From Elusimicrobiota bacterium (GTDB lineage: Bacteria; Elusimicrobiota; Elusimicrobia; Elusimicrobiales; Elusimicrobiaceae), in NCBI GenBank assembly GCA_029008615.1, contig JAQXJI010000003.1:1-64000 (forward strand): a stretch of 64,000 nucleotides of DNA. Direction: 5' to 3'. The translations under genes and the position numbers were made by a program. Below are positions 4,183 to 45,242 of the stretch, in pieces. The notes under the pieces are model-generated. The model saw nothing but the letters and a program-made list of their open reading frames with translations. It did no database searches and had not been told where the DNA came from. Position 1 is the first letter of the stretch, and the number at the start of each line of letters is the position of its first letter.

Positions 4183-4209
4183 ACCTATATAAATAACGGT
4201 TTTCATGCA

Positions 4210-4240: not shown

Positions 4241-4375
4241 TTATAAATTGAGTTTTATTTGATATTATCTGCTGATAAGAAAAACTAGTGTTTGTACCTT
4301 TGGATTTCTATGCTTTCTTTCAAAACTAAATTAATACTCAATATATTTTTTTAATAGAAATTAATGTATATAATC

Positions 4376-20967: not shown

Positions 20968-22900
20968 TTTCTTCCTCCGAAGGGTACCAGCGGTCTTCCT
21001 TTATCAAAGTAAATACGGTTTTATCCAAAGAAAGCAATTCTTCTTCCGCTTTTGTTTTGTCAAAAGTTCCTTCGTATTTTTCTTCTTCCAAGGCCTTTTC
21101 CCTGGTGTGCCTTATCGCGCCGTCATTTTTGATAAGCCCTATCGTATAGCCGTCGGCAAAGACGGCGCGTCTTTCTCCGTCTTCGGCAAAAAGGCTTTTC
21201 CCGGCGGCGGAATAAGGCTCCTGAAGGCGGAGCAAGTCAAAAAGAGTCGGCAAAATATCCAACTGTGAGCCTAAAGCATCGCTCTTCTGCGCTTTTATAT
21301 ATTTCGGCGCATAGATAAGGAAAGGTATATGATATTTTTCCTTAATATTGCCGTTGCGGTTGAAAGTGTGATCCGCCACAAAAATAAATACGGTATCGTA
21401 GAACCAAGGTTCTTTGCGGGCCTCTTCAATAAAGTAACCTATGGAATAATCCGCAAACAAGAGGGAATTTAAGTATTTGTTTTCCTCGGTGGTATTAGGA
21501 TATTTGTCAAAGCCTTCCAAATAGCCCAAATAGGGCGTATGCGTAATACCCGTGAAAGCGAAAACAAAGAAAGGCTCCTGCCCGCCGCGGAGTTTTTCGG
21601 TCAGAAGGTGATACATATCATAATCATATCCGTAGCCTTCTGCCTTGGCGTAATTAAATTGTTTGGGCATATCTTCCATACCGTAAACTTCGTCAAAGCC
21701 CAAGAGTTTTGCCGATTTGTCCAAATTGAAAGAAGCGCGCTGGGAAGTCTGCGCGAAAATCGTCCGATAGCCTTTATCTTTCAAGATTTGAGGCAGTTTC
21801 GTCATTGAAGTATTCTGAAGGCCGTATCCCAGTTTCGGCATTTTAGGCAGAGCGGGAATACCCGTCAAAACGGCCGTTATGCCTTGCAGGCTTCTTAGTT
21901 CAAAAGCGTAGAAATTATTAAAATAATTGCCGTGTTTTACCAATTTGTCAAAGTTGGGCGTAACTCCGTAAGCCGTACCGTTTACGGAATCTATATAATT
22001 GGGAACCCAGGATTCCAATGCGACGATTACCACATTAAGAGGTTTTTTATAGGGATTATCATTTTTAAACTTACGCATCAGCGGATACTGATAAGGCATA
22101 GGGGATTCTTCCCTTGCGGAAGAAAGCATATTTACGGTTTCTTCGGTAGCCAAATGTATGTCCCGCTCGTTTTCCGCCATATAATTGCCTTGGCTGATAA
22201 CGCTGTAAGAAGTAAAAATGCCGTTTAAAGCCAAATCTGCCGCCATACCGCTGTCGGCGTTTTTATAAGCGTCGGGGATATTTAAGGGCGTTTTGCCGAC
22301 TTTGCCGTATATGCCGAAAGCCGCCAGAAGTATAAAAATAAAATAAAACAGAATTTCCTTCCGGCCCATAAATTCCGGTTTATCGTAATAAATGTTTATT
22401 ATAGTATTGACAAGCCAAATAAAGAATGCAAAAGCAAAAATCAACAAAAGCAAAATCCACAAACCGGGGCCGAAAGCATAACCTACTATAAAGGAAAAAT
22501 CATTACCCAGGCTTAAAAGTTCTTCGCCCATATGGCGTTTAACGTAACCGAAGTATATCAAATCCGCCGTAAGAAGCGCACCCGATAAAACAAATTCCGC
22601 GCACAGGGCAAAAGTCCACACCTTAAGCCATTTTTTTGATTTTACGGGAAAAATCATCATAAAAATCAAAGGAAAAACGAATAAAGCTATTGCAGAAAAA
22701 TCAAATCTGAGTCCGCTTAAAAAAGCCGTAACCGTCTGCCAAAAAGAGAGCTTTTCAAAAAAAGAGTAATTAAAACAAAAAAGCAAAAATCTTTCAAAGC
22801 TGAACAGAGCAAAGAAAGAGAAAACAAAAAACAGAGCGGCTTTAAACCTAAGCTGAAGCGAGCCGCCGCGTTTGGCCAATTTTATGTGTCCGTATCTCAT
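20945..22900 (-). CDS. LtaS/OpgB-like phosphoglycerol transferase homologue 2
   Basis: 651 residues when started at the ATG just after the nuclease stop codon, with GGAAG upstream; an ATG eight codons earlier lies inside the preceding gene. Same layout as its downstream paralogue: five membrane segments, then a sulfatase-fold domain with VALESW (metal Glu), LRSLQG (predicted serine nucleophile), TGITHTPY and VADHTF. The two paralogues are clearly diverged, so they probably act on different acceptors or at different steps. It shares its operon with the nuclease upstream and the FGGY kinase downstream. Confidence 0.82.
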   Translation of the reverse strand: MRYGHIKLAKRGGSLQLRFKAALFFVFSFFALFSFERFLLFCFNYSFFEKLSFWQTVTAFLSGLRFDFSAIALFVFPLIFMMIFPVKSKKWLKVWTFALCAEFVLSGALLTADLIYFGYVKRHMGEELLSLGNDFSFIVGYAFGPGLWILLLLIFAFAFFIWLVNTIINIYYDKPEFMGRKEILFYFIFILLAAFGIYGKVGKTPLNIPDAYKNADSGMAADLALNGIFTSYSVISQGNYMAENERDIHLATEETVNMLSSAREESPMPYQYPLMRKFKNDNPYKKPLNVVIVALESWVPNYIDSVNGTAYGVTPNFDKLVKHGNYFNNFYAFELRSLQGITAVLTGIPALPKMPKLGYGLQNTSMTKLPQILKDKGYRTIFAQTSQRASFNLDKSAKLLGFDEVYGMEDMPKQFNYAKAEGYGYDYDMYHLLTEKLRGGQEPFFVFAFTGITHTPYLGYLEGFDKYPNTTEENKYLNSLLFADYSIGYFIEEARKEPWFYDTVFIFVADHTFNRNGNIKEKYHIPFLIYAPKYIKAQKSDALGSQLDILPTLFDLLRLQEPYSAAGKSLFAEDGERRAVFADGYTIGLIKNDGAIRHTREKALEEEKYEGTFDKTKAEEELLSLDKTVFTLIKEDRWYPSEEENDAKTGD

Positions 22901-22902
22901 AA

Positions 22903-24099
22903 TCAATCTTCCGTTTTGGAACAAATTATTTTATATTCTTCGGTAAATTCCGCCAAATCGAAAAGTATTTTATGCTGCTCGGGCGTAAGAGAACCGCTTT
23001 CAAGCAAAGCTTTTATAGTGCCCAAAGTCGGCACCAAAGTTTTACCGAGCAGATTTAAACTTTTTAAGGTTTGAACGGTCTTTTCCTTATCTTTAAAATC
23101 TATATTGCGCGTCTTGTGGAGCGAAACTTCAAAATTTTTACCAAAGTGCCTGTTAAGAGAGTTCTCTTTCATTGCGGATATTATTTCCTTTTCCAACTTT
23201 TTGGCTTCGTCCAAGGCTTTGCCGTAAGCGTCTATCTTTGAGGAAAGTTCCGCCATAGGGTTCTGCGGCTGCAAAGGCTCTTGCCCATAATCTTCCCCGC
23301 CGAAACTCTGTTCGTCGGCCGGGCTTAAACGCCAAACCGGGCACATATCTTTATAATCACAGAAGCGGCATTTTGTTTCCCCGGGATCGGGCGCAAACTT
23401 GCCCGCTTTGATATCAGCCGCAACGCCTAAAACGCGCGCCCAAAAATCATCCATTTCTTCTTTAGAGGCGGGGGGAAAAATCTGGGAATCTAAACTGGGC
23501 AAATGGTAAAAAGCCATATTGGCAAACTCTATTTTTTCCGCTTCGGGATGGCGCGCTTTGACGATATTTTCCAGTTCTTTATTGCCGGTCATAAGCTTTT
23601 GGTACATCATAAGCTGGTCCGGCTCGCGCGATATTTTTTTGCCGGTTTTATAATCAAGTATAGATACTTTGCCATCACCCAAATAGTCAATGCGGTCCAC
23701 TATGCCGATTACCGAAAGCCCGTCTATATCAACGGTGGTTCTAAATTCCGTCGCAATGGGGGAAAGCGTATCCGTAACGTGCTTGGCGTAATAAGCTTTT
23801 ATTATTCTTACGCCTTCAAGGTAGCCTTCGCTCTCTTTTAATTTGGAAGCGTATCCTTTATCGGCATAGGAGGTGGACTCCCAGTCTTTTTCAAAAAAAT
23901 CCAAAACCGTTTCCAAAGGCGGAAAAGGGGGTTTTAAGGAGGAATAAAGGTATTCCATTGCCTTATGCAAGGCCGAACCGAAAGCAAAGTAATATTTAGG
24001 CTTTTCCGGCAATTTCAGAACATAACGGAATTTGTATTTTTGCGGACATTCTTTATACATGCCCATTTTTGAATAAGAAAAGCTTAATTTGCCGGCCAT
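22903..24099 (-). CDS. PD-(D/E)XK nuclease-superfamily protein with probable Fe-S cluster
   Basis: 398 residues. N-terminal YSKMGMYKECPQKYKFRY is the classical start of the RecB/AddB/Cas4-like PDDEXK_1 family. The active site follows as H in FGSALHKAMEY, D in VIGIVDRIDYLG and the D-x-K pair in VSILDYKTGK. C18 with the later CRFCDYKDMCPVW gives four cysteines, the usual iron-sulfur staple of AddB and Cas4. The last ~120 residues are helical and unlike Cas4. No CRISPR array or helicase is nearby, so a DNA-repair or processing role is the safer reading. SD AGGAG is clear. Confidence 0.83.
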   Translation of the reverse strand: MAGKLSFSYSKMGMYKECPQKYKFRYVLKLPEKPKYYFAFGSALHKAMEYLYSSLKPPFPPLETVLDFFEKDWESTSYADKGYASKLKESEGYLEGVRIIKAYYAKHVTDTLSPIATEFRTTVDIDGLSVIGIVDRIDYLGDGKVSILDYKTGKKISREPDQLMMYQKLMTGNKELENIVKARHPEAEKIEFANMAFYHLPSLDSQIFPPASKEEMDDFWARVLGVAADIKAGKFAPDPGETKCRFCDYKDMCPVWRLSPADEQSFGGEDYGQEPLQPQNPMAELSSKIDAYGKALDEAKKLEKEIISAMKENSLNRHFGKNFEVSLHKTRNIDFKDKEKTVQTLKSLNLLGKTLVPTLGTIKALLESGSLTPEQHKILFDLAEFTEEYKIICSKTED

Positions 24100-26181: not shown

Positions 26182-29100
26182 ATGGGAGCGTATTTCAAAA
26201 AGTTTACCGCCGCGCTTTTGGCTCTGTTTATGCTTATTCAGAGCGGGCTTCCGCTCCGCGCAGAGCCGAACTCTTTCGCTCCGGATTTTGAAAGTTCTTC
26301 CCAAGACTCCGACAAACTGCTTATAAACACAAAATTTGCCGCTTTGGGCAATACTCTTTCTTTTGCGGCTTTTAAATACACGATGAGCGGCGGAAATATC
26401 TTCGCCAAAACCGATGACGCCGCATTGAAAGCCTTATATTTTGACTACAAAAAATCCGTCGTTGCGGAAGAAGAAGCCGTAAGCGCGGCTTACGCCCATA
26501 TAAACAAAGTGCACAAATACGGCCCCAAAAGCGCATTGGACGTCCTAAAAAAGGGCAAAAATAAAAACGGCGAAATTTGCGATTCCGGCAAATGCTTTGA
26601 CGAAACAATTTATAGCCGCGCGCTTTTAAGGGCTTTTTTAAGGTACGGCGCGGGGCTGGGCGAAAGCAACAAAAAATGGCGTTGGAACCGCGAAATAATG
26701 CTTGAATACGCTAAGCATATTTATTCCATATTAAACGGATACGGAGCAAGCCCAAACGATATAGCTTTGGCTCAAAAATACCTTCGCTATTTAATAGAAA
26801 AAACGGGCGATTGGTGCGACAATGACGTTTATATGGCCGATATTATGCCCGGCTTTGCCGGCGGAGACGGCCGAGCCGATGCCAGAATAGGCAAAGAACG
26901 CCGCAAAAATTATTGCGAGAAAATTGGCTACGCCGCGCTTTCCCTTGCTATGCTGCAAGATTTATCCGCCCAAGACGCGGAATTTAACGCCCGCTTGCTT
27001 TACAAACAATTAAAAGACAATTACCGCAAAGATTACGGCGCAATGGTGTTGGGCAATTATGTAACGGCTTTACTGATTGCCGGAAACGATACGGCCTTTT
27101 CCCTCTTGGAAAAATTCTTGCTTAAAGACAGCCTCTCCGACGGACTGCGCATAGGCGGAGTTTGGCAGATTTTGGGCAGAGTTTTTGACATCATCTCCAT
27201 AAAAGCGTGGGTGGATAAATGCACCGACGTCAACAATAAATTAAGGGGACGAGGCGGCAGATATTTAAACGAAGTCGGCCTGCGATTTCAATATATAGAC
27301 GAAGACACCGCACGCTCTTTCGGATTTTCTTCCTTCAGCGTATCTTTGGCCAAAGACGGAGTAAGCGGATACAATATGCCTTACGGCAATATCCTTGAAG
27401 ATCTGGGCGAACTCGTAGCCGCCTGGCCAGATAACCGCGCGCAAAAAATAGCCGCAAAAGCCGTAAATAATTACTCTTACGCTTTAAGAAAAGGCGACGT
27501 CGGATATTCTTATGCGCATACTCCTTTTGTCGTCGGAGCGATAAAAAGCGGAAAAGTAAAATCTTCAAACTCCGCCTATGTGGTAAATAAGCTTTATGCG
27601 CTTGACTGGTGGGATTTGAACGAAGGTACCCAACGCCGCGTAAACAATTTGGCGGCAAAAGCTTCAAGAGAATACGGGGCTGGATACAAAGCCGAAAAAA
27701 CGAAAGACGCGGTAAAAGCCGCCCGCGCCGCCAAAAATAAAAAAATATCCGAACTTGCCGTTTGGGGCGATATACTTGTAAGTGCGGTGCTTATGACTTC
27801 TTTCGTAATCAGCATACCTTCTTTGGCAAAAGGAGCTTCTTCTTTCATAAAAAGCTTTTCAGCTTCAAAATCATTAAGGACGGCGCGCATAGCAAAAATA
27901 AGAAACGCGGGCAAAGGCAATTTGCTCAATAAAATGCGTACTGTTAAAAAGGCCCCTGCGGCTTCTTCTCCGGTAAAAAACGTCCCGGCGAAAAGCGGCG
28001 GAGTAAAACCCGCTCCCGCTAGCGCGGCAAAGCCTTCTTCCTCAGCCAAAAGCGGACGGCTGAAAGGCAAAAAATCTTCCGAGCTTTCTTCCCTAACCAA
28101 GAAGCGCAGAACGGCTGACAAACCGGGCCTTTCCGCTTCCGCGCCTAAAGAAGCCGCTGCACCTAAAAAACAAACCGTTACGGGGCAAACAACTCTTACC
28201 GAACAATCGGCCCAAAATTTTACGGATATGTCCGCAAGGCCGGAAGCTTTAACCGTTTCAATCGGGGAAGGCTCCTCCGGCGGAGCATCGGGCGGAAACA
28301 TTTCTGCTCTTACAAGGGAGCAAAGACTGTTAAGAGCCAAAATTGACGCCGAATATGAGATGCGTCTTGCGGAAGAGGCTCTTGAACTAAGCCGGCCTGT
28401 CGGGCCGCAAAAACCGTTTAAAGGCGGTTGGTTCTTCAATAAACCTTATAAAGAATTACCCGCGTGGAAGCGTTTTGCGTTTGACAATTATTTTTCCTGG
28501 GTTTTACCATCTTTTGATATTACGGCCCAAAGTTTGACGGGCGCATTAAGAAATCCGGGCAAAGCCGCAGCCGGATTAAGTTTAAGCGGCGCGCCGGCGG
28601 TAAATTTATTTACACCGTCAGTCACAGTCGTTAGATATGAACGCGCTCCGCAGGCAATAGTGAATGTTTCCTCTTTATTAAAAGGAAGTTCAAATATCCC
28701 GGTAACGGTAACCCGCATTACGCCTTCCTTAACCAAAATAGAAGCCTTTTCCGGCGCGCTTAATTCCGCAGGGACCGCGGCGCAAAGCGCAAATGCCGGG
28801 CATAAAGCTTTATCGATACTTGCTTTGCCGGCTATTGAGGGCGTTTTAAATGAGTTTCACGGCGGCAATTCCGGCGGGGTAAGCCGCTTTCGCGGAAGCG
28901 GTACAGCCGTATATCCCGCAAACAGAACTTCCTCCGTCAATCCGAACACGCCCGCCAAAAACGTATTTTATTTGGAAGATTCTATTTCACCGCAGGAGAA
29001 AGGCTTTTCGGATTTAGAGCGTTTTGTCGAACAAATACTGAAAAAGCGTTCCGTCAATAAGGCCAACAAAGCCAGATATGAGAACCTTATGGATATTGCC

Positions 29101-31071
29101 AAATATATCTCGCCAAGGCTCAGCGCGGAACTTATAGAGATAATAGATCAAAATCCTTACGGCACTCAGACTTTTGACAGTTTCTTTGAAGCCGTTTTAA
29201 ACCTGCTTGAAGATTTGCGGCCCGGCCAAATTATAGCGCTTGCGGCCGATAAAATACCCTCGACCAGAACCGCCCCCTTGGAAGATTCCGCCGTGGCGAA
29301 TATGCTTATCATAGAAGATAACCCTCTTGAAGACGTTTTTGACTATGTATCTTCTTCCGGCAATTTTATGGTGGCTTCCGCTTTAAACAGAGCTTTGCAG
29401 CTGCCGCGTGAAGCGCAGGACAGAGTTCTTTCCAATTTAATTGATATCGCTTTGCAGAAGAGAAGCGCCGGCGCGCCTAAGAAATCTTATCTTATAGGCG
29501 TCAGCGGGGACGCTTACGAATGGGAAGATTTTTCACAAGACGACTTGGTCGAACTTGCTTTGGGCAAGGAAGTTAAAAAAGATTTAATAAAGGAACTTTC
29601 CGTTAAAAAAGGACGCAGCGATTATAAGCATTTCCTTTCGGACTATAAAGAGTGGCTTATATCGGTGCTCGGCGCAACGCGCGAAACGCCGGCGGTTGTA
29701 TTTAAAAATTCTCAAGATACTTATTTTATTTACAGCCACGACGGCAGCCGACGCATAAGGATAGGCGGCCACGAACTTTTGATGTCAAGAAAGGTGAATT
29801 ATCATTTTCATCTTGAATACCGCAACGGAAGCGAGGGTTCTTGGCGCGGTCCTTTAAATTACGTTTACGCTTGGCCCAACCAAGATATGCTTCCTTCCGA
29901 TGTGATAACAGATATGTTGGAAGGCCCAGTTAAATTTATGAAATCGCGCGGGGTTTTGCTCGCACAAGCGGCTTTTGAACAAAAATTCGGGCAGGCTTCC
30001 CCAACGGAAGTCAAGGGCGGCGGCGACGCAAACGGCTTTTTCGGAAGCGGACTTTATTTATCGGCATATCCCGCAAAACCGGCGTCTTTCGGCGATATTC
30101 CTTTGGCGGGTAAATTTAAAGGTTGGCAAAACGCCCTTATCCCCAATATGACGATGAGGGGGCTATCATACGTGCCGGCAAGAACGCCGGAGCGCCACGC
30201 TTTCTACGAGGGAATAAAAAAGGATTTGGCGGAACTTTTCGGGCGTAGTGATTATCTTTCGCCTTGGCGCAAAAAGCTGGGCGGATATGACGTTACTCCC
30301 TATAAAAACAGTACATTTTCCGTAATGACGCCTTCTTATATGACGGGTACGGCTTTTTATGCGCAGTATTTGGGAATGAATTTTCTGATTACAAACAGCC
30401 ACGTAGTCGGCAAATCAAAAAGCGTAACTTTAACTGACGCCGACGGAAAGGAATATAAAGGGGACGTCATCGCCAGGACTACCGAACGCGACGCATTGGA
30501 TTTGGCGCTTATTCTGCCCAGAAATCAGAAAATTTTTAAAGGCCGCACCCCTTTAAATCTTTCTTTAAGGCCTGTTGAGGGCTTTGGCAGTGAACTGTAT
30601 CTTATGGGATATCCCGGCGACGCACGGGCTTTTAACAAGAAAGCTATGTTGTTTATAGAACAGGATTATACGGGCCGCTATCCCGCTTTAACCGCTGTAC
30701 CGGCCGCTTTTGGCGGCAATTCCGGCGGGCCTTTAATGGCGCAGGGCCAAAACGGCGATTATGTGGCGGGGGTAATGCAAAGTTCCAGCCAGGTAAGCAG
30801 CCATTTTATACCGTCTTCAACCGTAAAAAGCTTTTTAAAGAAAACGGTAAAACTCGGGCTTTCCAATCCGGGATTTGATAATAATATTTTTTACAGAGCC
30901 GGGCTGTTTTCAACGAGGCCTTTTCTAAAAGAAATGTTTACCATCGACGCCGGCTTTTGGCGGCAAAACCTTTTGGAAGGCGAGGGCAAAGCGGTGCCAG
31001 GCTTCGGTTTTACTCCCGGTATGACAATAGAAAACCGCTACATCCCCGTAACTTTTACGCAGCCCAAGTAA
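26182..31071 (+). CDS. 1629-residue secreted protein with C-terminal trypsin-like serine protease domain
   Basis: A signal peptide (ALLALFMLIQSGLPLRAEP) opens the protein. Residues ~40-500 are a helical, repeat-like region; a hydrophobic segment lies near 524-550; residues ~560-720 are Ala/Ser/Lys-rich low complexity. The C-terminal ~300 residues hold an S1-type (HtrA/V8-like) protease: His1407 in TNSHVVG, Asp1440 in LDLALIL and Ser1514 in GGNSGGPL, all in the right order. The whole triad is intact, so it may be an active exported protease; the last ~60 residues follow the domain. No matching full-length family was recognised. No SD; the -10-like box is 6 nt before the ATG. Convergent with rmuC after 10 bp. 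Confidence 0.75.
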   Translation: MGAYFKKFTAALLALFMLIQSGLPLRAEPNSFAPDFESSSQDSDKLLINTKFAALGNTLSFAAFKYTMSGGNIFAKTDDAALKALYFDYKKSVVAEEEAVSAAYAHINKVHKYGPKSALDVLKKGKNKNGEICDSGKCFDETIYSRALLRAFLRYGAGLGESNKKWRWNREIMLEYAKHIYSILNGYGASPNDIALAQKYLRYLIEKTGDWCDNDVYMADIMPGFAGGDGRADARIGKERRKNYCEKIGYAALSLAMLQDLSAQDAEFNARLLYKQLKDNYRKDYGAMVLGNYVTALLIAGNDTAFSLLEKFLLKDSLSDGLRIGGVWQILGRVFDIISIKAWVDKCTDVNNKLRGRGGRYLNEVGLRFQYIDEDTARSFGFSSFSVSLAKDGVSGYNMPYGNILEDLGELVAAWPDNRAQKIAAKAVNNYSYALRKGDVGYSYAHTPFVVGAIKSGKVKSSNSAYVVNKLYALDWWDLNEGTQRRVNNLAAKASREYGAGYKAEKTKDAVKAARAAKNKKISELAVWGDILVSAVLMTSFVISIPSLAKGASSFIKSFSASKSLRTARIAKIRNAGKGNLLNKMRTVKKAPAASSPVKNVPAKSGGVKPAPASAAKPSSSAKSGRLKGKKSSELSSLTKKRRTADKPGLSASAPKEAAAPKKQTVTGQTTLTEQSAQNFTDMSARPEALTVSIGEGSSGGASGGNISALTREQRLLRAKIDAEYEMRLAEEALELSRPVGPQKPFKGGWFFNKPYKELPAWKRFAFDNYFSWVLPSFDITAQSLTGALRNPGKAAAGLSLSGAPAVNLFTPSVTVVRYERAPQAIVNVSSLLKGSSNIPVTVTRITPSLTKIEAFSGALNSAGTAAQSANAGHKALSILALPAIEGVLNEFHGGNSGGVSRFRGSGTAVYPANRTSSVNPNTPAKNVFYLEDSISPQEKGFSDLERFVEQILKKRSVNKANKARYENLMDIAKYISPRLSAELIEIIDQNPYGTQTFDSFFEAVLNLLEDLRPGQIIALAADKIPSTRTAPLEDSAVANMLIIEDNPLEDVFDYVSSSGNFMVASALNRALQLPREAQDRVLSNLIDIALQKRSAGAPKKSYLIGVSGDAYEWEDFSQDDLVELALGKEVKKDLIKELSVKKGRSDYKHFLSDYKEWLISVLGATRETPAVVFKNSQDTYFIYSHDGSRRIRIGGHELLMSRKVNYHFHLEYRNGSEGSWRGPLNYVYAWPNQDMLPSDVITDMLEGPVKFMKSRGVLLAQAAFEQKFGQASPTEVKGGGDANGFFGSGLYLSAYPAKPASFGDIPLAGKFKGWQNALIPNMTMRGLSYVPARTPERHAFYEGIKKDLAELFGRSDYLSPWRKKLGGYDVTPYKNSTFSVMTPSYMTGTAFYAQYLGMNFLITNSHVVGKSKSVTLTDADGKEYKGDVIARTTERDALDLALILPRNQKIFKGRTPLNLSLRPVEGFGSELYLMGYPGDARAFNKKAMLFIEQDYTGRYPALTAVPAAFGGNSGGPLMAQGQNGDYVAGVMQSSSQVSSHFIPSSTVKSFLKKTVKLGLSNPGFDNNIFYRAGLFSTRPFLKEMFTIDAGFWRQNLLEGEGKAVPGFGFTPGMTIENRYIPVTFTQPK

Positions 31072-35702: not shown

Positions 35703-35801
35703 GAAAAAACCTCCGCAGCAGTTCCGCAAAAGAAAACAATGGAAAAATATCTTATGATTTTCTAATATATGGTTAATTATATGATTTTGAGAGGTACAGC
35801 T

Positions 35802-37163
35802 ATGTCAAGCCAAAAAAACGACACCGATAATGTCGCTGAAGTTTCTTCCGGGGTGCAGCAAACGCCTTCTTCACAGGCGCAAGGAACTTGCGGGGCGGAT
35901 TCTAAAGCGCGTCCGCTTTCCGACGTTACCGCCGCAGCCAATTCCGGCAAATCCGCGCAAGGAAATTTGGCGCAAAACCCTTTCGTCGTACCGGTCCCGG
36001 CTATCCCCACGCAAGAAGGCCCGCTTGGCATACGTTATGATTTTAACGACGGCGCGCGCGTACTTCTGCCAGAAGGCAAATGGCACGTTCAGATAGAAGA
36101 CGCCGAAAGCGATAATATAATTTTTGCCTGCGACAGCGGTGCGGGTTGGGTTTTAAGCGCGAAGAAATATTATATACCTTTCAGAATAAAAGTTTGGATA
36201 CAGGGGGAAAAAGAACCCGTCCTTAACCACACTTTGGATTTAAGCGGAAAAGAAGTTCAAATCAAATTCCCGGTAGGTACTTTGGGCGATATAATAGGCT
36301 GGCTTCCTTACGCCGAAAGATTCCAAAAAAAGCACAACTGCGCGGCGGAGCTTACTTTGGCGCAGAATATGGTTGATTTATTCGCCGCACAATATCCTCA
36401 ATTATTTTTTACCGCAGTTCCCGGCAAAGTCAAATTCGAAAAGCCTTACGCCAGTTACCGCCTCGGCCTGTTCTTTAAAGGCAACAATACCGATCAGCCC
36501 ATTGATTTCCGTATGGTCGGCCTGCATAAAACAGCCGCTTATATTTTGGGAGTAGATCCCGGGGAAGAAGCCCCGCGCGTACGTTTGGGCAGCGAACGTA
36601 AAATCAAGGAAAGATATGTCTGCATAGCTGTAAAATCAAGTTCTCAGGCTAAGTTTTGGAATAACGGCTGCGGGTGGGAACAGGTTGTAAAACATCTTAA
36701 AGATATGGGATACCGCGTGCTTTGCATAGATAAAGAACCCGTCGTAGGGCAAGGTTTTATTTGGAACAGAATGCCGCACGGCGCGGAGGATTTTACGGGC
36801 AATATTTCCTTGCAGGAGAGAGTGGCCCTTTTGGAACACGCTGATTTCTTTATAGGTCTTTCTTCAGGATTAAGCTGGCTAGCCTGGTGTACGCATATAC
36901 CCGTAATACTGATAAGCGGTTTTACTCTGCCTATTTGCGAGTTTTATACTCCATACCGCGTCTACAACAGCCACGGTTGTATGGGCTGCTGGGACGATAT
37001 CAATCTTAATTTTGACCATTATGATTTTCTGTGGTGTCCACGATTTAAAAATACGCCCAGGCAGTATGAGTGCACCCGCCTGATAACCGGCAAACAGGTT
37101 ATAGGGCATATAGACAGACTGATGAAAGAGAATAATTTAACCGCGCCTGCAAAAGGCCGCTGA
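35802..37163 (+). CDS. autotransporter O-heptosyltransferase (TibC/Aah, BAHT family)
   Basis: 453 residues from the ATG that follows GAGAGG by 7 nt. The C-terminal half matches the bacterial autotransporter heptosyltransferases: FPVGTLGDIIGWLPYAE, SGLSWLAWCTHIPVILISGFT and FYTPYRVYN, ending with four cysteines C393, C396, C412, C424 (C-x2-C-x15-C-x11-C) in the place of the TibC iron finger. Such enzymes transfer ADP-heptose to many serines of the adjacent autotransporter passenger in the cytoplasm. The first ~70 residues are Ser/Ala/Gln-rich and not conserved. It is 26 bp upstream of, and co-directional with, the autotransporter gene. Confidence 0.88.
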   Translation: MSSQKNDTDNVAEVSSGVQQTPSSQAQGTCGADSKARPLSDVTAAANSGKSAQGNLAQNPFVVPVPAIPTQEGPLGIRYDFNDGARVLLPEGKWHVQIEDAESDNIIFACDSGAGWVLSAKKYYIPFRIKVWIQGEKEPVLNHTLDLSGKEVQIKFPVGTLGDIIGWLPYAERFQKKHNCAAELTLAQNMVDLFAAQYPQLFFTAVPGKVKFEKPYASYRLGLFFKGNNTDQPIDFRMVGLHKTAAYILGVDPGEEAPRVRLGSERKIKERYVCIAVKSSSQAKFWNNGCGWEQVVKHLKDMGYRVLCIDKEPVVGQGFIWNRMPHGAEDFTGNISLQERVALLEHADFFIGLSSGLSWLAWCTHIPVILISGFTLPICEFYTPYRVYNSHGCMGCWDDINLNFDHYDFLWCPRFKNTPRQYECTRLITGKQVIGHIDRLMKENNLTAPAKGR

Positions 37164-37189
37164 CGTAAAAATAAGATTCGGAGATTATT

Positions 37190-40100
37190 ATGGCTATACC
37201 CAAAACAAGCGCATATATTGAAAATTTGGAAAACATTTACTGCCACAGCAGGAGTGCGGCCTGTTCTTTAAGTTCGGGTGCGGCAAAAACAAGAGGCGCC
37301 CGGATAATAAACGGCGGTAAAAAAGCCGTTTATACGGCCGCGGTTATAGCTATGCTAAACAATAACTTCGCCGCTTACGCATACGCGGACAGCTTTGTTC
37401 CCGTAGGGGAAACGGCTTCCGGCGTAATAGTGCAGGGCACCGATGAAGAGGCGGACTCTATGCACGTTTACGGTTCGGCGCATAGTACGGAAATCGACTA
37501 TAACGGTTATCAATATATTTATTCCGGCGGAGCGGCCGGGCTGACTTCCATTAATTCCGCGGGTTACCAAATAATATCCGGCGGCGGGAAAGCTGCCGAT
37601 ACAACAATCACCAACGGCGGCGAGCAGATTGTTTCAAGCGGCGCATTGGCGCAACGAACAAACGTAAATTACGGAGCTTTCCAAACGATTTATGCGGGCG
37701 GAAGTTCCTTGGACGTTACGCAAAACGGCGGAACGATAAACGCTTCCGTAGGCAAAAGCGGGGATAATGCCGCAACATATATTTCCGGCAAGAACCAAAA
37801 CGGAGAAGTCTTTACGCTTCAAAACGGTTCGGCAAATAATTTTATAATCAATTCCGGCGGATATTTAAACGTCAATTCCGACGGTACAGCCAATAACACT
37901 ACGGTAACTTACCAAGGCGTTCACAGTGTTGAAGCCGGCGGAAGTTCCCTGAATATAGACCAAAAAGCGGGCGGTAACATAAACGCGGCGGCAGGCAAAG
38001 ATTCCGCAAATATCTCCACCTTAATAAGCGGCGAAAACCAATACGGGGAAGCCTTTTCTCTCCAAAACGGCGTAGCGACAAACTTCGTAGTCAATTCCGG
38101 CGGAGCCCATACCGTAACTGCGGGGGGAAGTTCTCTTAATTTGGTGCAAAACGCGGGCGGCAATATAAACGCCGATGTCGGCGCGGACGCGGCAAATGTT
38201 TCCACATATATAAACGGCGTAAATCAAAACGGACAGAACCTTACTTTGGAAAACGGTTCGGCCAATAATTTTATAATCAATTCCGGCGGTTGGCAAAACG
38301 TATTTTCCGGCGGGCTGGTAACTAATACGACTGTCAACGGCAGGGGCTTGCAGTCTATATCCTCCGGCGGTAAAGCTTTAAACACCGTAATAAATGCTTA
38401 CGGGAGCCAAGCCATATATGAAGGCGGTCAGGCCGCAAGCGTTGTTATAAGCGGGCAGGAAGCTTTACAAAATATTTATTCCGGCGGTAAAGCCGAAAAT
38501 ATTTTGATAGAAGATTACGCAGCGCAAAATATCGGCGCAGGCGCACAGGCCGACAATACGGTAATAGGGGCAAACGGCATTCAGCAAATAGCTTCCGGCG
38601 GAACGGCCCAATCCACAACAGTCAATTCCGGCGGAACGCAAAGCGTTAACGCAGGGGGAAGTTCCTTGGACGTTACGCAAAACGCGGGCGGCAATATAAA
38701 CGCCGAAATAGGCGGCAATGCCGAAACTTATATTACCGGCATAAACCAAAACGGGGAAAGTTTTACGCTTCAAAACGGAGTAGCTGCAAATTTTGTGGTC
38801 AATTCCGGCGGGGCTCATACCGTAATGGCCGGGGGCAGTTCAATCAATTTAACCCAAAACGGCGGATACATTGATGCCGTCGTCGCTAAAGACGGGGACA
38901 ATATATCCACATACATAGACGGCGTCAACCAAAGCGGAAACGCTATGACCCTTTCAAACGGAAAAGCCGAAAATTTTATAATTAACAAAGGTTCTCAAAC
39001 GGTATCTTCCGGCGGGGTAACGGTTTCAACGATTTTAAATAATTCCTCATATCAATATGTCGGCCCGGGCGGAACGGCAAATTCTACCGTCGTACTCAGC
39101 GAAGCAGAACAGCACATATCATCGGGCGGTGCGGCTTACGGGGCGATTTTAAGCGGATTTTCGGCCTATCAAGTGGTTTCAAACGGAGGTTTTGCCCAGG
39201 GAACGGTTTTAAATTCCGGCGCGATGCAAAATGTACTTTCCGGCGGTTTGGACAATGAAGCGCAGGTCAATTCCGGCGCAAGCCAGGTTATTTCTTCGGG
39301 CGGCTCAGCCTACGGAGCGCAAATTAACTCCGGCGGGGTTCAATATATTTCCGCAGGCGGATCGGCAAATTCCTCTTATATAAATGAAAGGGGAAACCAA
39401 GCCGTAGAATCCGGCGCAATGGCGGAAAACACCGTTTTGGCTTCGGGCGCAAGGCAGAATGTTTTTGTTGGCGGAAGCGCTGTAAACGTAATACAAAATT
39501 CCGGCGCAAACATTAACGCCAGCATAGGCGCTGCGGCGGAATATCAAGACACATACATCACCGGCACTAACGAAAACGGCGAAGCTTTAACGCTTTCGGG
39601 GGCGGTCGCAAGCAATTTTATAATTAATTCCGGCGGCATACAGCTTGTTGATTCCGGCGGATCGGCCCTCAATACCATAATAAACGATAAAGGCTATCAA
39701 TACGTTTCGGCGGGGGGAAGTTCCATTGACGTAACGCAGCATTCGGGCGGTAATATAGACGTAATAGTCGGCAAAGACTCCAAAAACATTTCAACTTATG
39801 TCGGCGGCGAAAACCAAGAGTGCTCGGTTTTAAGCCTTTCCGGCGGAGTTGCAAGCAATTTTATAATCAATTCCGGCGGATCTCATACGGTTTTATCGGG
39901 CGGCAAATCCTTAGACGTTGTAATTAAATCCGGCGGTAATATTTATGCCGTCGTCGCCAAAGACGCCGCTAACATTGATACTTACATAAGCGGCGTAAAC
40001 CAAAACAACGACACTTTAACCCTCGACCAAGGGGTTGCAAGCAATTTTATAGTAAACTATTACGGCAAACAAATAATATCTTCCGGCGGCTCGGCTTACG

Positions 40101-43100
40101 ACACAATTATAAACGCGGAAGGCCAACAATGGATATCGGAAGACGGCATCGCTTATAACGCGCAAGTCAATCAAGGCGGGGTACAGCAAATATCCTCCGG
40201 CGGTGCCGCCGAAAACACCGAGCTTAAAGGAACTCAAGTTATTTTTGCAGGCGGTTCTGCCAATTTGACCGAAATAAACGGCGGAACGCAAAAAATTTCC
40301 GGCGGCGCGGCCGAAGGCACAGTAATAAATTCCGGCAGTCAGTTTATTTATGAAGGCGGAGCCGCCAGCGCTACTTTGGTGGCTTCCGGCGGATATCAAA
40401 TAGTGGAAAAAGGCGGCCTAGCTGATGGCACGGTGCTCTCTTCCGGCGGCGTTCAGCAGGTTTCCGCAGGCGGAAGCGCTGTCAATCTTACCCAAAACGC
40501 CGGGGCATACATAACCGCGGACGTCGCCAAAGACGCCGCAAATATTTCCACATATATTACCGGCCACAACCAAAACGGGGAAGCCTTAAGCCTTATCAGC
40601 GGCGAAGCAAACAATTTTATAATAAGTTCCGGCGGCGCGCAAAACGTTTATTCCGGCGGCGTGGCAGTTAATACAGTGGTGGAATCCGGCGGAAGGCAAG
40701 CTGTTTCGCAAGGCGGAAGCGCGGTAAACGTAATACAAAAAACCGGAGCGTACATAGATGTTGACGTCGCCAAAGACGCCGCGAATATTGATACTTATAT
40801 TACCGGGCAAAACCAATACGGAAGCAGTATGAAGCTTTTACAGGGTGAAGCTGAAAACTTAGTAATAAATACCGGCGGAAAACAAAATGTATATTCCGGC
40901 GGCATAGCCGACAATACCATCGTAAGCGGCGTACAGACGGTAGCTATGGGCGGTTCGGCCAATTATACCGATATTACCGGCGGTTTGCAGTTGGTTTCCT
41001 CCGGCGGCGCGGCAAAAGATACTGCAATCAACTTCTTGGGGGTGCAGGATATTGCAGGCGGTACGGCCGAAGGAACGACAATAAACAGTTTCGGCACTCA
41101 GACCGTGGCCGCGGGCGGAAGCGCGGTAAACACAATAATAAATGCCGGCGGCAATCAAAACGTATCTTCAGGCGGAACCGTAAACAATACGCAAGTCAAC
41201 GCTTCGGCAATACAAAATGTTATGGGCGGCGTTGCGAACTCAACCTTTGTCAATTCCGGCGCGGTTCAAAACATAACGGAAGGCGGTGCGGTGAGGGATA
41301 CTCAAGTCAACGCCGGCGTACAGAACGTCATAAGGGGTATAGCCATAAATACCGACGTGAATGAAGGGGCGGCGCAGAATGTTTCTTCCGGCGGAGTAAC
41401 AAGCCACACTTATGTAAATTCCGGCGGAACACAGACGGTTTATCAAGGCGGTGCGGCCGTATCCGCCACGCTAAGCGGCGGAGTGCAGAATATAGCCGGC
41501 TTGGCAAATGACACTTTAATAGCCGCTGGCGGCGTACAGAATATTTTGGCCGGCGGCGCAGCCGAAGGCGTAACGGCGGGTTCTGGCGGAACTCAAAACA
41601 TCAATGCCGGAGCTTCGGCCAAAAACGTATATGCGGCGGGCGGAACCGTCAATCTGCTTTCAGGCGGATCTTTGCAGGGTTACTCTGCCGAAAACGGAAC
41701 TTTGAACATTTACGGCAACAATCACATTTACGGCGATACGGTGTTAAGCGCGGGCGCGGCGATTAATATGGTTTCGGCTTCCTCAGGATTTACCGATTTA
41801 AACGCGGATAATCTCAAAGCCGATAACGCCTTAATGAAGATGAACGTCAATCTTGAAACCGGGGAAAGCGATAAACTGACCGTAAACGGCAACTATGAAG
41901 GCCAAACTATGCTAGCCTTAAACAATACCTCCGAAATTGCCAAAGAAACCACCGGCGACGGCATAAAACTGGTGGAGTTTTCTTCCGCCTCTCAAATTGA
42001 CGGAGATTTTGAACTTTTGGGCGGCAAATGGGACGAAGGCGGCTATGAATACCTTTTGCACCAAGGCACGGCGGCGGGGGAAGGTTACGATTATTATTTG
42101 CGTAATTCAATGGTATACAGCGACGTATTCAAGAGTATGCTCAACATTCCTTTGATGAACAGCGTAATAGCCAGAAGCGGTATGAATTCCCTGCAAAAAA
42201 GAATGGGCGATTTGCGAAATATGGCCGAAGGCTCCAACCAAAACGGAATATGGGCCAGAACTTACTATAAGGATATGCGCGTAAAGGATCTTGTGGAAAC
42301 GGATATGAGCCTCTTCGGCGTTGAAGCGGGGTATGATTGGCTGTTTACTCCTAATGAACCTAACAAGTTATACGCCGGCGTTATGATAGGCTACGCCAAT
42401 GCGGGTTCAATAAAAACCGAAAAAGAAAACGGCTCCGTCTACGGGGACGGCAAAGGTACATCGCCTAGCGTCGGTATATACGCCACTTTGATAAATGACG
42501 ACAAATGGTTTGTGGATTTGGCGGCAAGGAACTTTTGGACCAAACTGGATATGACGCACTATTCCGCTTCCGGCAATCAACTTAAATTTGAGCCGGAGCG
42601 CAACATATTCGCCCTAAGTTTGGAAGGCGGCAAAGAGTTTACCCGGGATTTGGGCGGGGATTCTTTTATCCGCATAGAACCTAAGGCTGAAATTGAATAT
42701 ATGTCCGCTTCTTCCGACGAAGTTAAAGTAAAAGGCGGAACGGGTGCATTGGCATACGACAAAGCAAACTATTTCAGCGCGAAAGGCGCGATTATGGCGG
42801 CTTACAGTATGCGCCAGCCTAATGGACTGCTTATAGAACCGCTTTTGGAACTTGCATACAGATATGAGTTTATGGGTGAAGGCGACGTAAGCTACGGCGG
42901 AGCGAAAGAAACCACAAGCCTTAAAGGCGGCACGCTTGAAGCCGGGCTCGGCATAAATATGCAGCTTACGGAAAACCTCTATTGGCACGCCGTGGGCAGT
43001 TATGAAGCCGGCGACAAACTGCAGGGTTGGGGCTTAAACGCAGGGATAAGGTATGCTTTCGGGGGGATTTCTTTCGGAAGCGGAACGAAAACCCGTAAAA

Positions 43101-43288
43101 ATAACCGTAAAGAATCTTTCTATGAATACAACAGATATGACCGCGGCTACTATGACAGAGATTACGACGAAAAACCTAAAAAAGAAAAACAAAAAAAGGT
43201 AAAAAAGGCCAAAAATAACGATAAAACTTACGAAAGCCAGCCCGACAGCAACGAGATACGCAACGTAAGAAGGCGTTACGAGTTTTAA
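37190..43288 (+). CDS. AIDA-I-like self-associating autotransporter, 2032 residues
   Basis: SD GGAG precedes the ATG. The first ~65 residues are an extended signal peptide with a charged N-terminus and a cleavage site after AYAYA. The passenger (to ~residue 1500) is made of SGG-rich strand-loop-strand repeats of the AIDA/TibA type (pattern SGGxAxxTxINSGGxQxV) interrupted by ten copies of a longer ~60-residue module. A linker leads to the beta-barrel from about residue 1657, whose last strand ends LNAGIRYAF (F1957). A 75-residue charged tail follows the barrel, which is unusual. It should be exported, pushed through its own barrel and displayed on the surface for aggregation or adhesion, after heptosylation by the upstream enzyme. 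Confidence 0.92.
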   Translation: MAIPKTSAYIENLENIYCHSRSAACSLSSGAAKTRGARIINGGKKAVYTAAVIAMLNNNFAAYAYADSFVPVGETASGVIVQGTDEEADSMHVYGSAHSTEIDYNGYQYIYSGGAAGLTSINSAGYQIISGGGKAADTTITNGGEQIVSSGALAQRTNVNYGAFQTIYAGGSSLDVTQNGGTINASVGKSGDNAATYISGKNQNGEVFTLQNGSANNFIINSGGYLNVNSDGTANNTTVTYQGVHSVEAGGSSLNIDQKAGGNINAAAGKDSANISTLISGENQYGEAFSLQNGVATNFVVNSGGAHTVTAGGSSLNLVQNAGGNINADVGADAANVSTYINGVNQNGQNLTLENGSANNFIINSGGWQNVFSGGLVTNTTVNGRGLQSISSGGKALNTVINAYGSQAIYEGGQAASVVISGQEALQNIYSGGKAENILIEDYAAQNIGAGAQADNTVIGANGIQQIASGGTAQSTTVNSGGTQSVNAGGSSLDVTQNAGGNINAEIGGNAETYITGINQNGESFTLQNGVAANFVVNSGGAHTVMAGGSSINLTQNGGYIDAVVAKDGDNISTYIDGVNQSGNAMTLSNGKAENFIINKGSQTVSSGGVTVSTILNNSSYQYVGPGGTANSTVVLSEAEQHISSGGAAYGAILSGFSAYQVVSNGGFAQGTVLNSGAMQNVLSGGLDNEAQVNSGASQVISSGGSAYGAQINSGGVQYISAGGSANSSYINERGNQAVESGAMAENTVLASGARQNVFVGGSAVNVIQNSGANINASIGAAAEYQDTYITGTNENGEALTLSGAVASNFIINSGGIQLVDSGGSALNTIINDKGYQYVSAGGSSIDVTQHSGGNIDVIVGKDSKNISTYVGGENQECSVLSLSGGVASNFIINSGGSHTVLSGGKSLDVVIKSGGNIYAVVAKDAANIDTYISGVNQNNDTLTLDQGVASNFIVNYYGKQIISSGGSAYDTIINAEGQQWISEDGIAYNAQVNQGGVQQISSGGAAENTELKGTQVIFAGGSANLTEINGGTQKISGGAAEGTVINSGSQFIYEGGAASATLVASGGYQIVEKGGLADGTVLSSGGVQQVSAGGSAVNLTQNAGAYITADVAKDAANISTYITGHNQNGEALSLISGEANNFIISSGGAQNVYSGGVAVNTVVESGGRQAVSQGGSAVNVIQKTGAYIDVDVAKDAANIDTYITGQNQYGSSMKLLQGEAENLVINTGGKQNVYSGGIADNTIVSGVQTVAMGGSANYTDITGGLQLVSSGGAAKDTAINFLGVQDIAGGTAEGTTINSFGTQTVAAGGSAVNTIINAGGNQNVSSGGTVNNTQVNASAIQNVMGGVANSTFVNSGAVQNITEGGAVRDTQVNAGVQNVIRGIAINTDVNEGAAQNVSSGGVTSHTYVNSGGTQTVYQGGAAVSATLSGGVQNIAGLANDTLIAAGGVQNILAGGAAEGVTAGSGGTQNINAGASAKNVYAAGGTVNLLSGGSLQGYSAENGTLNIYGNNHIYGDTVLSAGAAINMVSASSGFTDLNADNLKADNALMKMNVNLETGESDKLTVNGNYEGQTMLALNNTSEIAKETTGDGIKLVEFSSASQIDGDFELLGGKWDEGGYEYLLHQGTAAGEGYDYYLRNSMVYSDVFKSMLNIPLMNSVIARSGMNSLQKRMGDLRNMAEGSNQNGIWARTYYKDMRVKDLVETDMSLFGVEAGYDWLFTPNEPNKLYAGVMIGYANAGSIKTEKENGSVYGDGKGTSPSVGIYATLINDDKWFVDLAARNFWTKLDMTHYSASGNQLKFEPERNIFALSLEGGKEFTRDLGGDSFIRIEPKAEIEYMSASSDEVKVKGGTGALAYDKANYFSAKGAIMAAYSMRQPNGLLIEPLLELAYRYEFMGEGDVSYGGAKETTSLKGGTLEAGLGINMQLTENLYWHAVGSYEAGDKLQGWGLNAGIRYAFGGISFGSGTKTRKNNRKESFYEYNRYDRGYYDRDYDEKPKKEKQKKVKKAKNNDKTYESQPDSNEIRNVRRRYEF
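37500..41700 (+). repeat. coding repeats of the autotransporter passenger
   Basis: Dozens of degenerate repeats of about 19-22 codons encode SGG-type strand-loop-strand units. Between about 37694 and 40895 they alternate with ten copies of a ~60-codon module reading roughly AGGSSLDVTQNAGGNINA, a KDxxNISTYI stretch, then NQNGE, SLQNGxA and NFIINSGG. The DNA of the repeats is similar enough to allow slippage or recombination. They are coding and not a CRISPR or satellite. Confidence 0.85.
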
Positions 43289-43320: not shown

Positions 43321-43337
43321 AAAGCGGTTTCCGCTTT
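43321..43337 (+). terminator. hairpin between the autotransporter and denV
   Basis: AAAGCGG and CCGCTTT pair perfectly around TTT, followed by AATATATTTTTT. It can end the autotransporter transcript, and its downstream flank overlaps the presumed -10 (TAATAT, 43337-43342) of denV. Confidence 0.5.
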
Positions 43338-43349
43338 AATATATTTTTT

Positions 43350-43754
43350 ATGACGCGGATAAATTTAATAGAGCCGAAAAAGCTTTACGATCAGCACCTG
43401 ATAGCGGAATACAGAGAAATTTTTATGGTGCCCGCCGCTTTAAAACGCTCTTTAAAAGCAACAAACGGCGCGCGCCTTGATCATATACCTAAAAGTTTTA
43501 CATTAGGCAAAGGGCACGTAAGATTTTTCTATGATAAAGGCAAATACCTTTACAAACGCTACGCGCTTTTGCGGGCGGAAATGATAAAGCGTGGGTTTAA
43601 GCCCGATATAAACAGAAAATTCCCCAAAGAAATATTTATAGAAAACAAATTATTTAACGACTGGCGACCTGATAAACTCGCCCGCGCCGTTATTATTCAG
43701 AGAATTAAGCAAAAAATAGCCCAAAAGCCCACTTGGTACCGCAAAAGCGTATAG
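43350..43754 (+). CDS. denV: pyrimidine dimer DNA glycosylase, T4 endonuclease V homologue
   Basis: 134 residues aligning by eye with phage T4 DenV along its length. The N-terminus MTRINL gives the catalytic Thr2 (after Met removal), with Arg3, and E23 in AEYREI is the catalytic acid; LGKGHVRFFYDK, KRYALL and KIAQKPTWY also match. The enzyme nicks DNA at UV-induced cyclobutane dimers through a glycosylase/AP-lyase reaction. The C-terminal aromatic tail is shorter than in T4. No phage genes flank it. No SD; a TAATAT box lies 7 nt before the ATG. Confidence 0.9.
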   Translation: MTRINLIEPKKLYDQHLIAEYREIFMVPAALKRSLKATNGARLDHIPKSFTLGKGHVRFFYDKGKYLYKRYALLRAEMIKRGFKPDINRKFPKEIFIENKLFNDWRPDKLARAVIIQRIKQKIAQKPTWYRKSV

Positions 43755-43868: not shown

Positions 43869-45242
43869 TTATTTCGGCAATTTTATCTCCGGGTTTTCCT
43901 TTGATAACACTTTGGTCTTCTTTTTTACCAATTTGCCCTCTTTATATATTTCAAGCGTGTAATACAAAAGATTGCCGTTATTGTCATACTCCTCTATAAG
44001 AACCTGCTCATGTAAATTCCTAGGTCCAAAAGTGATTATTGCCTTATGCGTGCCGACGGGGACGCGGTTTTCGGAATTGTTAAAATCCACTATGCGCATA
44101 TTGCCGCTGACTCTTTGTAATCCACCTAACTTTTTAGGCATAGCTTTTTGGTCAAAATTTTTGTTAATCAATTTACGCCCTTCTTTAGCTTCCATATTAA
44201 TGTAAGTTCTGCTTTTAAAAAAATATACACCAGTATCTTTAGTATCACTGGAATAAGTCCTGCTCATATAGTTATAGCCTGAATTATAAGCGTTTGTTTT
44301 TTCTCCCTCAAAAGATTCTTTCCCTTCCGAAAATCTTATCCCGTCTTTGCAGAAAGATTCAAAATCCCTTTTTATCTTCAGAGCGTCGTCAAAAAGCATT
44401 ATAATTCCATCGACGTCATCGCACTTCAGCGTCTGCGTCAAATTATCCATAATGCTTATACGGGGATTTACGGTAGAATAAATGATATCGGCATTATCCG
44501 CTGATTTTAATTGGTCCGCCAAACCTATCGAATGGCCCGTTTCATGCAACATTGCATAAAATAAATTCTTTTTGGGGGGCATAAAGTTATTTATAAAACT
44601 TTCAAGTTCATCCAGCAAAGCGGCCATTTTGGTATATTCATAATTTGGAGTTTGCAAAATGTCATTCTTTAATTGGGAGAATTTCTTTGAATTTGAATAT
44701 ACGTCTATAAATCTCGTAGGTATTACGATATGAGGTGCGGGATTAAAAGTGTAGTGAGGGGGCATTTTATCTAAATAGTTCATTTTTGAAAAAAATACAT
44801 CTTCATAAAAAAACGAAATATCAGCAGCCGGGGCGGAAATAACTCCCGGAAGAGGATTAAGATATTTTAAATATTTTTCCGGATATTTGGAAAAATCACA
44901 ATTTTCAAGTAAAGTCAGGTTAGGAGCCATTTCCAGCTTTTCCAAAACAGTGGCAAATTCCTTTTCCCTGCCGGACTGCCTTATAACCTTCGCCGGATAA
45001 GCCGTCCATATTTTAAAAACAAGTTTTATATAATCTTCAAAATCCGCCTTTGAAATTGCTTTAAGCCCGTCCTCGCTAACGTAAGAACAATATGAAATAG
45101 ACTTTCCCGATGCAAGTTTTTCGGCCAAATATACGTTCTTGTTAATATTATAGGTGTAAAGCCTTGCCGCAGGTTTCGCATTAACCGCTACGGCAAAAAA
45201 ACATAAAGATAAAACAGTAAAAATTTTATAAAGGGCTTTCAT
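43869..45242 (-). CDS. secreted zinc metalloprotease-like protein, second metzincin
   Basis: 457 residues with a signal peptide (IFTVLSLCFFAVAVNA). The zinc motif HETGHSIGLAD starts at His233, the same HExxHxxGxxD pattern as in the protein at 11457-12287; both also share a methionine-containing turn (SIMDN here) and a CDDVDGIIMLFD segment. It differs by a longer N-terminal part and an extra ~150-residue C-terminal region of beta character (TYTLE/EQVLIEEYDN-like strands). It probably acts in the periplasm or outside. SD AAGGAG is clear. Function beyond a likely peptidase is unknown. Confidence 0.72.
   Translation of the reverse strand: MKALYKIFTVLSLCFFAVAVNAKPAARLYTYNINKNVYLAEKLASGKSISYCSYVSEDGLKAISKADFEDYIKLVFKIWTAYPAKVIRQSGREKEFATVLEKLEMAPNLTLLENCDFSKYPEKYLKYLNPLPGVISAPAADISFFYEDVFFSKMNYLDKMPPHYTFNPAPHIVIPTRFIDVYSNSKKFSQLKNDILQTPNYEYTKMAALLDELESFINNFMPPKKNLFYAMLHETGHSIGLADQLKSADNADIIYSTVNPRISIMDNLTQTLKCDDVDGIIMLFDDALKIKRDFESFCKDGIRFSEGKESFEGEKTNAYNSGYNYMSRTYSSDTKDTGVYFFKSRTYINMEAKEGRKLINKNFDQKAMPKKLGGLQRVSGNMRIVDFNNSENRVPVGTHKAIITFGPRNLHEQVLIEEYDNNGNLLYYTLEIYKEGKLVKKKTKVLSKENPEIKLPK

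Follow-up and report, generated by a model that had tools for sequence, protein, structure and literature searches.

A TibC-like heptosyltransferase and AIDA-like autotransporter gene pair in Elusimicrobiota: a probable separate branch of the autotransporter heptosylation system with its own leader and post-barrel tails

In a 64,000-nucleotide stretch of DNA from an Elusimicrobiota bacterium of the family Elusimicrobiaceae (bases 1-64000 of contig 3, JAQXJI010000003.1, of a 1.66 Mb genome that is 99.6% complete), referred to here as the window, a gene for a TibC/Aah-like heptosyltransferase lies next to one for an AIDA-like autotransporter adhesin. The locus raises the question of whether dedicated heptosylation of an autotransporter occurs in this phylum and, if so, whether the pair is a recent arrival or a branch of its own; the initial annotation had left both origins standing. 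We assign a probability of about 0.83 to the reading of the pair as an Elusimicrobiota branch of the BAHT/self-associating-autotransporter system, in which the neighbouring passenger would be heptosylated in the cytoplasm, then exported and displayed. The observations made here concern the identity of the genes, the active-site and finger residues, the repeats, the barrel, the donor genes, the phylogeny, the conserved leader and the tails. The features of the pair are as follows.

35769..37163 (longest open reading frame; likely start 35802), plus strand: autotransporter O-heptosyltransferase (BAHT; TibC/Aah-like), from TIGR04414, PF21129 TibC_1st and the TibC alignment.
35973..37127, plus strand: TibC-like enzyme domain, residues 69-453, from alignment with TibC (4rap/4rb4).
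36978..37073, plus strand: iron-finger cysteines Cys404, Cys407, Cys423 and Cys435, kept in 40/40 aligned rows.
37190..43288, plus strand: AIDA-like autotransporter adhesin, 2032 residues, from TIGR04415, PF16168, PF03797 and structure matches.
37190..37387, plus strand: lineage-specific extended leader, residues 1-66, common to 18/18 complete Elusimicrobiota repeat passengers.
37535..41557, plus strand: strand-loop-strand repeats, predicted heptose acceptors, from TIGR04415 and the TibA, Ag43 and AidA-I family structures.
42110..43060, plus strand: classical (type Va) 12-strand translocator barrel with pore helix, from PF03797, an AlphaFold model and PDB matches.
43061..43285, plus strand: post-barrel tail of 75 residues, basic (isoelectric point 9.8), predicted from its composition and the model's confidence score (predicted local distance difference test, pLDDT) to be disordered and periplasmic.
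43321..43337, plus strand: terminator-like hairpin 3' of the pair, a weak match to a simple pattern.

The enzyme scored 583.4 bits in a profile search with TIGR04414 (cut-off 200) and carries PF21129 TibC_1st in a Pfam scan, and its residues 69-453 match the PDB sequences of Escherichia coli TibC, 4rap and 4rb4, with E-values of 6.5e-173 and 4.8e-174. Following the TibC numbering of PMC4358343, the catalytic and sugar-site residues were mapped to Asp174, Ser291, Lys295, Arg351, Ser365 and Trp370, and Cys404, Cys407, Cys423 and Cys435 were found to align with Cys339, Cys342, Cys358 and Cys370 of TibC, in agreement with the original description of a TibC/Aah-like heptosyltransferase with a four-cysteine finger. 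Asp110, Lys230, Arg286 and Trp305 of TibC, together with the four finger cysteines, are retained both in the window enzyme and in all 40 aligned rows. The N-terminal TibC domain, the glycosyltransferase core, the four-cysteine iron finger and the catalytic Asp are features shared with TibC and Aah of E. coli (PMC4358343), whereas the window enzyme differs from TibC in belonging to another phylum and clade, in the Ser/Ala-rich stretch of ~57 residues (counted from 35802) that precedes its TibC-like domain, and in having serine at the sites of TibC Thr226 and Pro300. The residue at the second of these, the stereoselectivity site, is Ser365, as in AAH, which accepts both ADP-heptose epimers (PMC4358343).

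The two open reading frames lie on the plus strand as first described, with 26 bp between them (37164-37189) and a GGAG upstream of the passenger start. Read from 35769, the enzyme has 464 residues; read from an in-frame ATG at 35802, 11 codons inside the longest frame, it has 453. The start at 35802, which was also the one chosen originally, is the better candidate because GAGAGG lies just 5' of it, whereas inspection of the sequence upstream of 35769 revealed nothing similar. A scan for promoters was uninformative (19 observed vs 12.9 expected), and because the region contains 20 terminator-like hairpins by simple pattern match, compared with 15.6 expected, the hairpin at 43321..43337 is weak evidence for a terminator. 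An enzyme gene adjoining a gene for a strand-loop-strand autotransporter is also the arrangement of TibC-TibA and Aah-AIDA-I in E. coli.

The passenger scored 488.5 bits with TIGR04415, in 29 stretches, and matched PF16168 in 12; a genome-wide scan placed 30 TIGR04415 matches in 37535..41557 and found zero elsewhere in the host genome. Structures matched by the same region are those of Ag43, TibA and an AidA-I family adhesin. PF03797 scored 101.5 bits (cut-off 26) in a separate scan of the C-terminal part, a match that was unlisted in the Pfam scan of the whole passenger, and the AlphaFold model shows a 12-strand barrel with a pore helix, its barrel blocks mostly at pLDDT 76-93. A search of the PDB with the barrel found EspP (E-value 1.2e-14), BrkA (2.5e-14) and the barrel of AIDA-I. 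Repeats and barrel are thus both far above chance, and the claim of an AIDA-like passenger-barrel protein is upheld. The scores with NF033176 (599 bits) and NF033177 (363 bits) fall short of the cut-offs of 1200; judged by its sequence, the protein is a relative of AIDA-I and Ag43 and not AIDA-I itself, and it differs from TibA and AIDA-I in its leader and in possessing a tail beyond the barrel.

The host genome contains a candidate gene for each of the five steps of ADP-heptose synthesis, a pathway that the initial annotation had named among the checks on its proposal. In profile searches judged by NCBI's cut-offs, the heptose kinase (hldE kinase domain) scored 374.9 bits (cut-off 345), a separate adenylyltransferase (hldE adenylyltransferase) 182 bits (cut-off 181.5) and the epimerase hldD 303.2 bits (cut-off 274.6), with gmhA and gmhB slightly below theirs. 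As the genes that make the sugar donor lie elsewhere in the genome, the term 'self-contained' is too strong. The kinase and phosphatase genes are grouped with lpxK, an LpxL-like acyltransferase gene and kdsB, and the heptose probably therefore serves lipopolysaccharide (LPS) as well. It could be argued from this proximity of lipid A and 3-deoxy-d-manno-octulosonic acid (Kdo) genes to the heptose genes, with a donor shared with LPS, that the enzyme acts on the LPS core or on other proteins and leaves its neighbour unmodified. We consider this highly improbable, because the LPS heptosyltransferase families score 22-24 bits on the enzyme, compared with 583 for TIGR04414, because the iron finger and the N-terminal TibC domain of the family have been kept, and because the enzyme adjoins the sole repeat protein of the genome.

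Association of the enzyme with such a protein extends to its relatives. In 15/15 Elusimicrobiota-labelled loci with a complete enzyme (L002-L016), and also in L130, a strand-loop-strand open reading frame lies directly downstream on the same strand; the partner is upstream of the enzyme in L131, L132 and L133, from other families, and downstream in L134 and L135, while L019 is cut inside the enzyme. Among barrels preceded by more than 150 residues, repeats are present in 21/24 from genomes with the enzyme, compared with 2/8 from genomes without it. In L003 (10354-17377) the passenger is broken into three frames, possibly through an assembly error, decay or phase variation.

The gene content of the window had been called untypical of Proteobacteria, and the host genome is indeed that of a member of the Elusimicrobiaceae. 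Neither a proteobacterial host nor a lack of ADP-heptose synthesis, the two findings that would have told against the original proposal, was observed. The accompanying statement that such pairs are best known from Proteobacteria is too narrow for the family, which has members in Planctomycetota; a 2016 survey (PMC4827864) assigns the AT-1 family to Proteobacteria only, and no literature on this system was found for Elusimicrobia in connection with autotransporters or heptosyltransferases. TIGR04414 exceeds its cut-off in 18/90 genomes of the family Elusimicrobiaceae and 24/340 of the phylum, a patchy distribution, and in 2/369 genomes of the class of Saezia and 2/294 of the phylum of a Phycisphaerae metagenome-assembled genome (MAG); in each of the latter two cases one of the two genomes is the seed. 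Sixteen of the 18 named relatives of the enzyme found in one scan are labelled Elusimicrobiota, the others being from Saezia sanguinis and the Phycisphaerae MAG. On plasmids, 218 records match the enzyme, mostly from E. coli; the E. coli plasmid enzymes are 58-64% identical to that of the window, and many of these plasmids are conjugative.

Phylogeny of both proteins was another of the checks originally proposed. In an unrooted tree of 40 enzyme rows, 23 Elusimicrobiota rows form one clade (100/99) and the enterobacterial rows another (100/99); one row of family f2 (L061) falls outside the Elusimicrobiota clade, and the row L062 lies inside it on a very long branch. A reduced tree, also unrooted, which omits the N-terminal stretch and three long-branch rows (L087, L061 and L062), gives one clade each for 22 Elusimicrobiota rows (100/99), the enterobacteria (100/100) and the Planctomycetota (100/99). 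Inside the Elusimicrobiota clade, family f21 separates from f1 and f2, and this split, together with the clade itself, speaks for a long stay in the phylum rather than a recent import. Of the two origins originally offered, the trees are in line with a separate branch but not with a recent transfer, and they place the window enzyme in a settled Elusimicrobiota branch.

Recent acquisition from an enteric proteobacterium, carried by a plasmid or phage, would be in keeping with the conjugative E. coli plasmids, with the patchy spread in the family (18/90 genomes) and with the finding that conservation per residue is higher for the enzyme against TibC (583 bits over 385 residues) than for the slowly evolving housekeeping protein PyrG (598 bits over 522 residues) against a PDB sequence (15 entries, the first being 1s1m), which we take to be E. 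coli CTP synthase (PyrG). It is nevertheless very unlikely: both enzyme trees speak against it, with the main-branch Elusimicrobiota rows in one clade (100/99) and f21 split from f1/f2 inside it, the leader and the barrel tails are common across the phylum and are not shared with Saezia, and one scan of viral contigs found zero with relatives of the enzyme. The identity of the plasmid enzymes (58-64%) and the conservation per residue above that of PyrG do make an old exchange between phyla likely, followed by long residence in Elusimicrobiota. This concerns origin only and is compatible with the explanation that we favour; it is supported by the low counts obtained for the class and the phylum to which Saezia and the Phycisphaerae MAG, respectively, belong, and by the separate clade for each phylum. 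Against it, strong constraint on the enzyme could also have produced the high identity.

Several observations weigh against heptosylation of the neighbouring passenger as the function of the pair. The isomerase GmhA scored 201.8 bits (cut-off 209.45) and the phosphatase GmhB 162.5 bits (cut-off 178), each being the best family for its open reading frame and just below threshold. The site of TibC Thr226 is serine in the window enzyme and in 29/40 rows, from Elusimicrobiota, Saezia, Planctomycetota, Pandoraea and one E. coli row, which is a conservative change as judged from the alignment. One locus, L136, has no passenger within 20 kb in a BLAST search with the window passenger, and two genomes in which no enzyme was found (G080 and G077, 86% and 83% complete) hold repeat passengers.

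With these points taken into account, the way in which we envisage the pair to operate is as follows. The heptosyltransferase would probably form a cytoplasmic, iron-containing, dodecameric ring like that of TibC, draw ADP-heptose from the LPS pathway of the cell and place heptose on serines in the strand-loop-strand repeats of its neighbour before export. The modified passenger would then cross the inner membrane with its extended leader, the 12-strand barrel would be inserted through the β-barrel assembly machinery (BAM), and the long, sugar-coated β-helix would be displayed in the gut, where it would serve adhesion or autoaggregation. The basic tail would stay in the periplasm, where it may contact peptidoglycan or another part of the envelope, as the OmpA-like tails of relatives probably do. 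In this scheme we infer the assembly of the ring, the transfer of the sugar and its sites, adhesion, the function of the tail and anchoring.

The leader is conserved and spans ~65 residues, in which a Ser/Cys-rich stretch is followed by a GG-[RK]-x motif and then by a hydrophobic signal core that ends close to AxA; in the window roughly 40 residues precede the signal core, and cleavage is likely after ...AYA at residue ~66, a site read by eye. The count for the leader was made on the window protein and 28 other Elusimicrobiota proteins, taken from 44 unique barrels, in which the open reading frame was not open at its 5' end and the barrel match was near complete. It is present in 18/18 complete barrel proteins with repeats and 0/11 without; the raw output was 19/19, from which the Saezia row was removed because its motif match lay inside the repeats, and these rows are interrelated, so that a p-value computed on them would be misleading, with 6/11 of the negatives lacking any passenger. 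A single genome, G292, holds both kinds, namely repeat passengers with the leader and barrels without it.

The extended signal peptide region (ESPR, PF13018) is likewise found on strand-loop-strand passengers and likewise lengthens the N-terminus in front of an otherwise ordinary Sec signal. The sequence of the Elusimicrobiota leader, with its ~40 residues before the signal core, is, however, unrelated: no PF13018 match was obtained at E-values up to 10 in the three leaders tested (window, L012 and L134), whereas the leader of the Saezia partner matches it with 48.4 bits. By sequence the Elusimicrobiota leader seems to have met the same need independently. It might delay export so that the heptosyltransferase can act, an idea against which stands the statement, in a 2021 review, that in the systems examined glycosylation needs neither the ESPR nor the whole signal peptide (PMC8151025).

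At the other end of the protein, type Va autotransporters usually finish with the barrel, at the terminal aromatic residue of the last strand. The window protein instead runs 75 residues past its last barrel strand, and the tail appears disordered (model residues 423-495, pLDDT <50). A search of 334 genomes of the phylum, of which 33 had a match, together with the earlier loci, yielded the 44 unique Elusimicrobiota barrels, of which seven end at the last strand, three add 9-14 residues, 15, including that of the window, carry 37-228 extra residues without an OmpA domain, and 19 have an OmpA-like domain after the barrel, so that 34/44 extend by at least 37 residues. Pfam confirmed both PF03797 and PF00691 in 6/6 scanned relatives, with OmpA scores of 41-76 bits, and the OmpA profile for the wider count was built from these six. 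The 19 include some short proteins that lack a passenger. The model of one relative, L006, contains a 12-strand barrel and an OmpA part of low confidence. The Saezia partner and a Planctomycetota partner (L137) stop at the barrel strand.

The window tail itself contains no OmpA domain (PF00691) detectable by Pfam or by the locally built profile. A degenerate OmpA domain was considered, as the last residues slightly resemble the end of OmpA, and was rejected since neither Pfam nor the local profile matched.

Among the tails without an OmpA domain, those of L008, L012, L013 and L016 differ in length and composition and share an end motif, approximately D-[YF]-[ST]-x-M-x-x-[IL]-E-x-x-W, which is possibly a binding signal. 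Another protein (L135:4223-9862, from G292) has an ART-PolyVal domain (PF18760, 43.2 bits) between its autotransporter barrel and its OmpA domain, where an ADP-ribosyltransferase-like fold is unexpected. Six proteins of 489-575 residues (L166, L167 and L179-L182), with an ordinary signal peptide directly followed by an autotransporter-type barrel, and with an OmpA-like tail but no passenger, are by their sequences OmpA-like proteins with a larger barrel.

OmpA itself provides one comparison for the tailed proteins, in that a barrel is followed by a periplasmic OmpA-like domain, from which they differ in having a 12-strand autotransporter barrel with a passenger and, in the window, a tail that lacks the OmpA domain. 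The other is with the inverse (type Ve) autotransporters intimin and YeeJ, in which the adhesin barrel likewise has a periplasmic part that is believed to hold on to peptidoglycan. That part is N-terminal and of the LysM type, whereas in Elusimicrobiota it is C-terminal to a classical barrel and OmpA-like in the relatives.

A more speculative reading, less likely than not, is that Elusimicrobiota evolved heptosylated classical autotransporters of their own, in which the leader would mark the substrates of the cytoplasmic heptosyltransferase and the periplasmic post-barrel extension, OmpA-like in many and basic in the window, would tie the adhesin to the wall. That the tails are functionless C-terminal drift is on balance unlikely: the tails without an OmpA domain do vary in sequence and length, and 7/44 barrels have none, but drift would not be expected to give an OmpA-like domain in 19/44 barrels, Pfam-confirmed in 6/6 of those scanned, or the end motif common to four other tails.

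The pair is thus a real new branch and a variant of a known system, found outside Proteobacteria together with its donor pathway. Dedicated autotransporter heptosylation was described in proteobacterial pathogens; the pair would carry it into a phylum whose members, from the gut and the rumen, are mostly uncultured, and in which it forms an old branch of its own. How cytoplasmic glycosylation is timed relative to export is named as an open question in a 2021 review (PMC8151025), and the Elusimicrobiota branch gives independent material for comparison. The leader and the tails are parts that a specialist would not expect, with functions that are predicted from sequence. Were wall attachment of the kind suggested above correct, a type Va autotransporter would have a wall anchor, which is said to be confined to type Ve. 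According to a 2019 review, no autotransporters other than some of type Ve have the extra periplasmic domain, and if the OmpA-like tails bind peptidoglycan, then the wall anchoring that this review restricts to type Ve would be open to classical autotransporters also (PMC6555100). A search of titles and abstracts found no OmpA-tailed classical autotransporters in the literature, which does not in itself show their absence from print.

Directly after the pair lie a gene for a Pyr_excise-family protein (43350-43754, plus strand) and, on the minus strand (43869-45242), one for a protein with a weak matrixin (M10) match, below the cut-off. Elsewhere in the window, the G+C content falls to about 33-35% at 4001-8000, compared with 38-47% in the surroundings; within this zone lie the open reading frames 4376-5587, which matched no family, and 5580-6533, with a weak Radical SAM match below the cut-off. 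An open reading frame of 1629 residues at 26182-31071 has as its sole notable match a trypsin-like domain near the C-terminus, and two sulfatase-family genes adjoin a gene for an FGGY sugar kinase at 17595-22924 on the minus strand.

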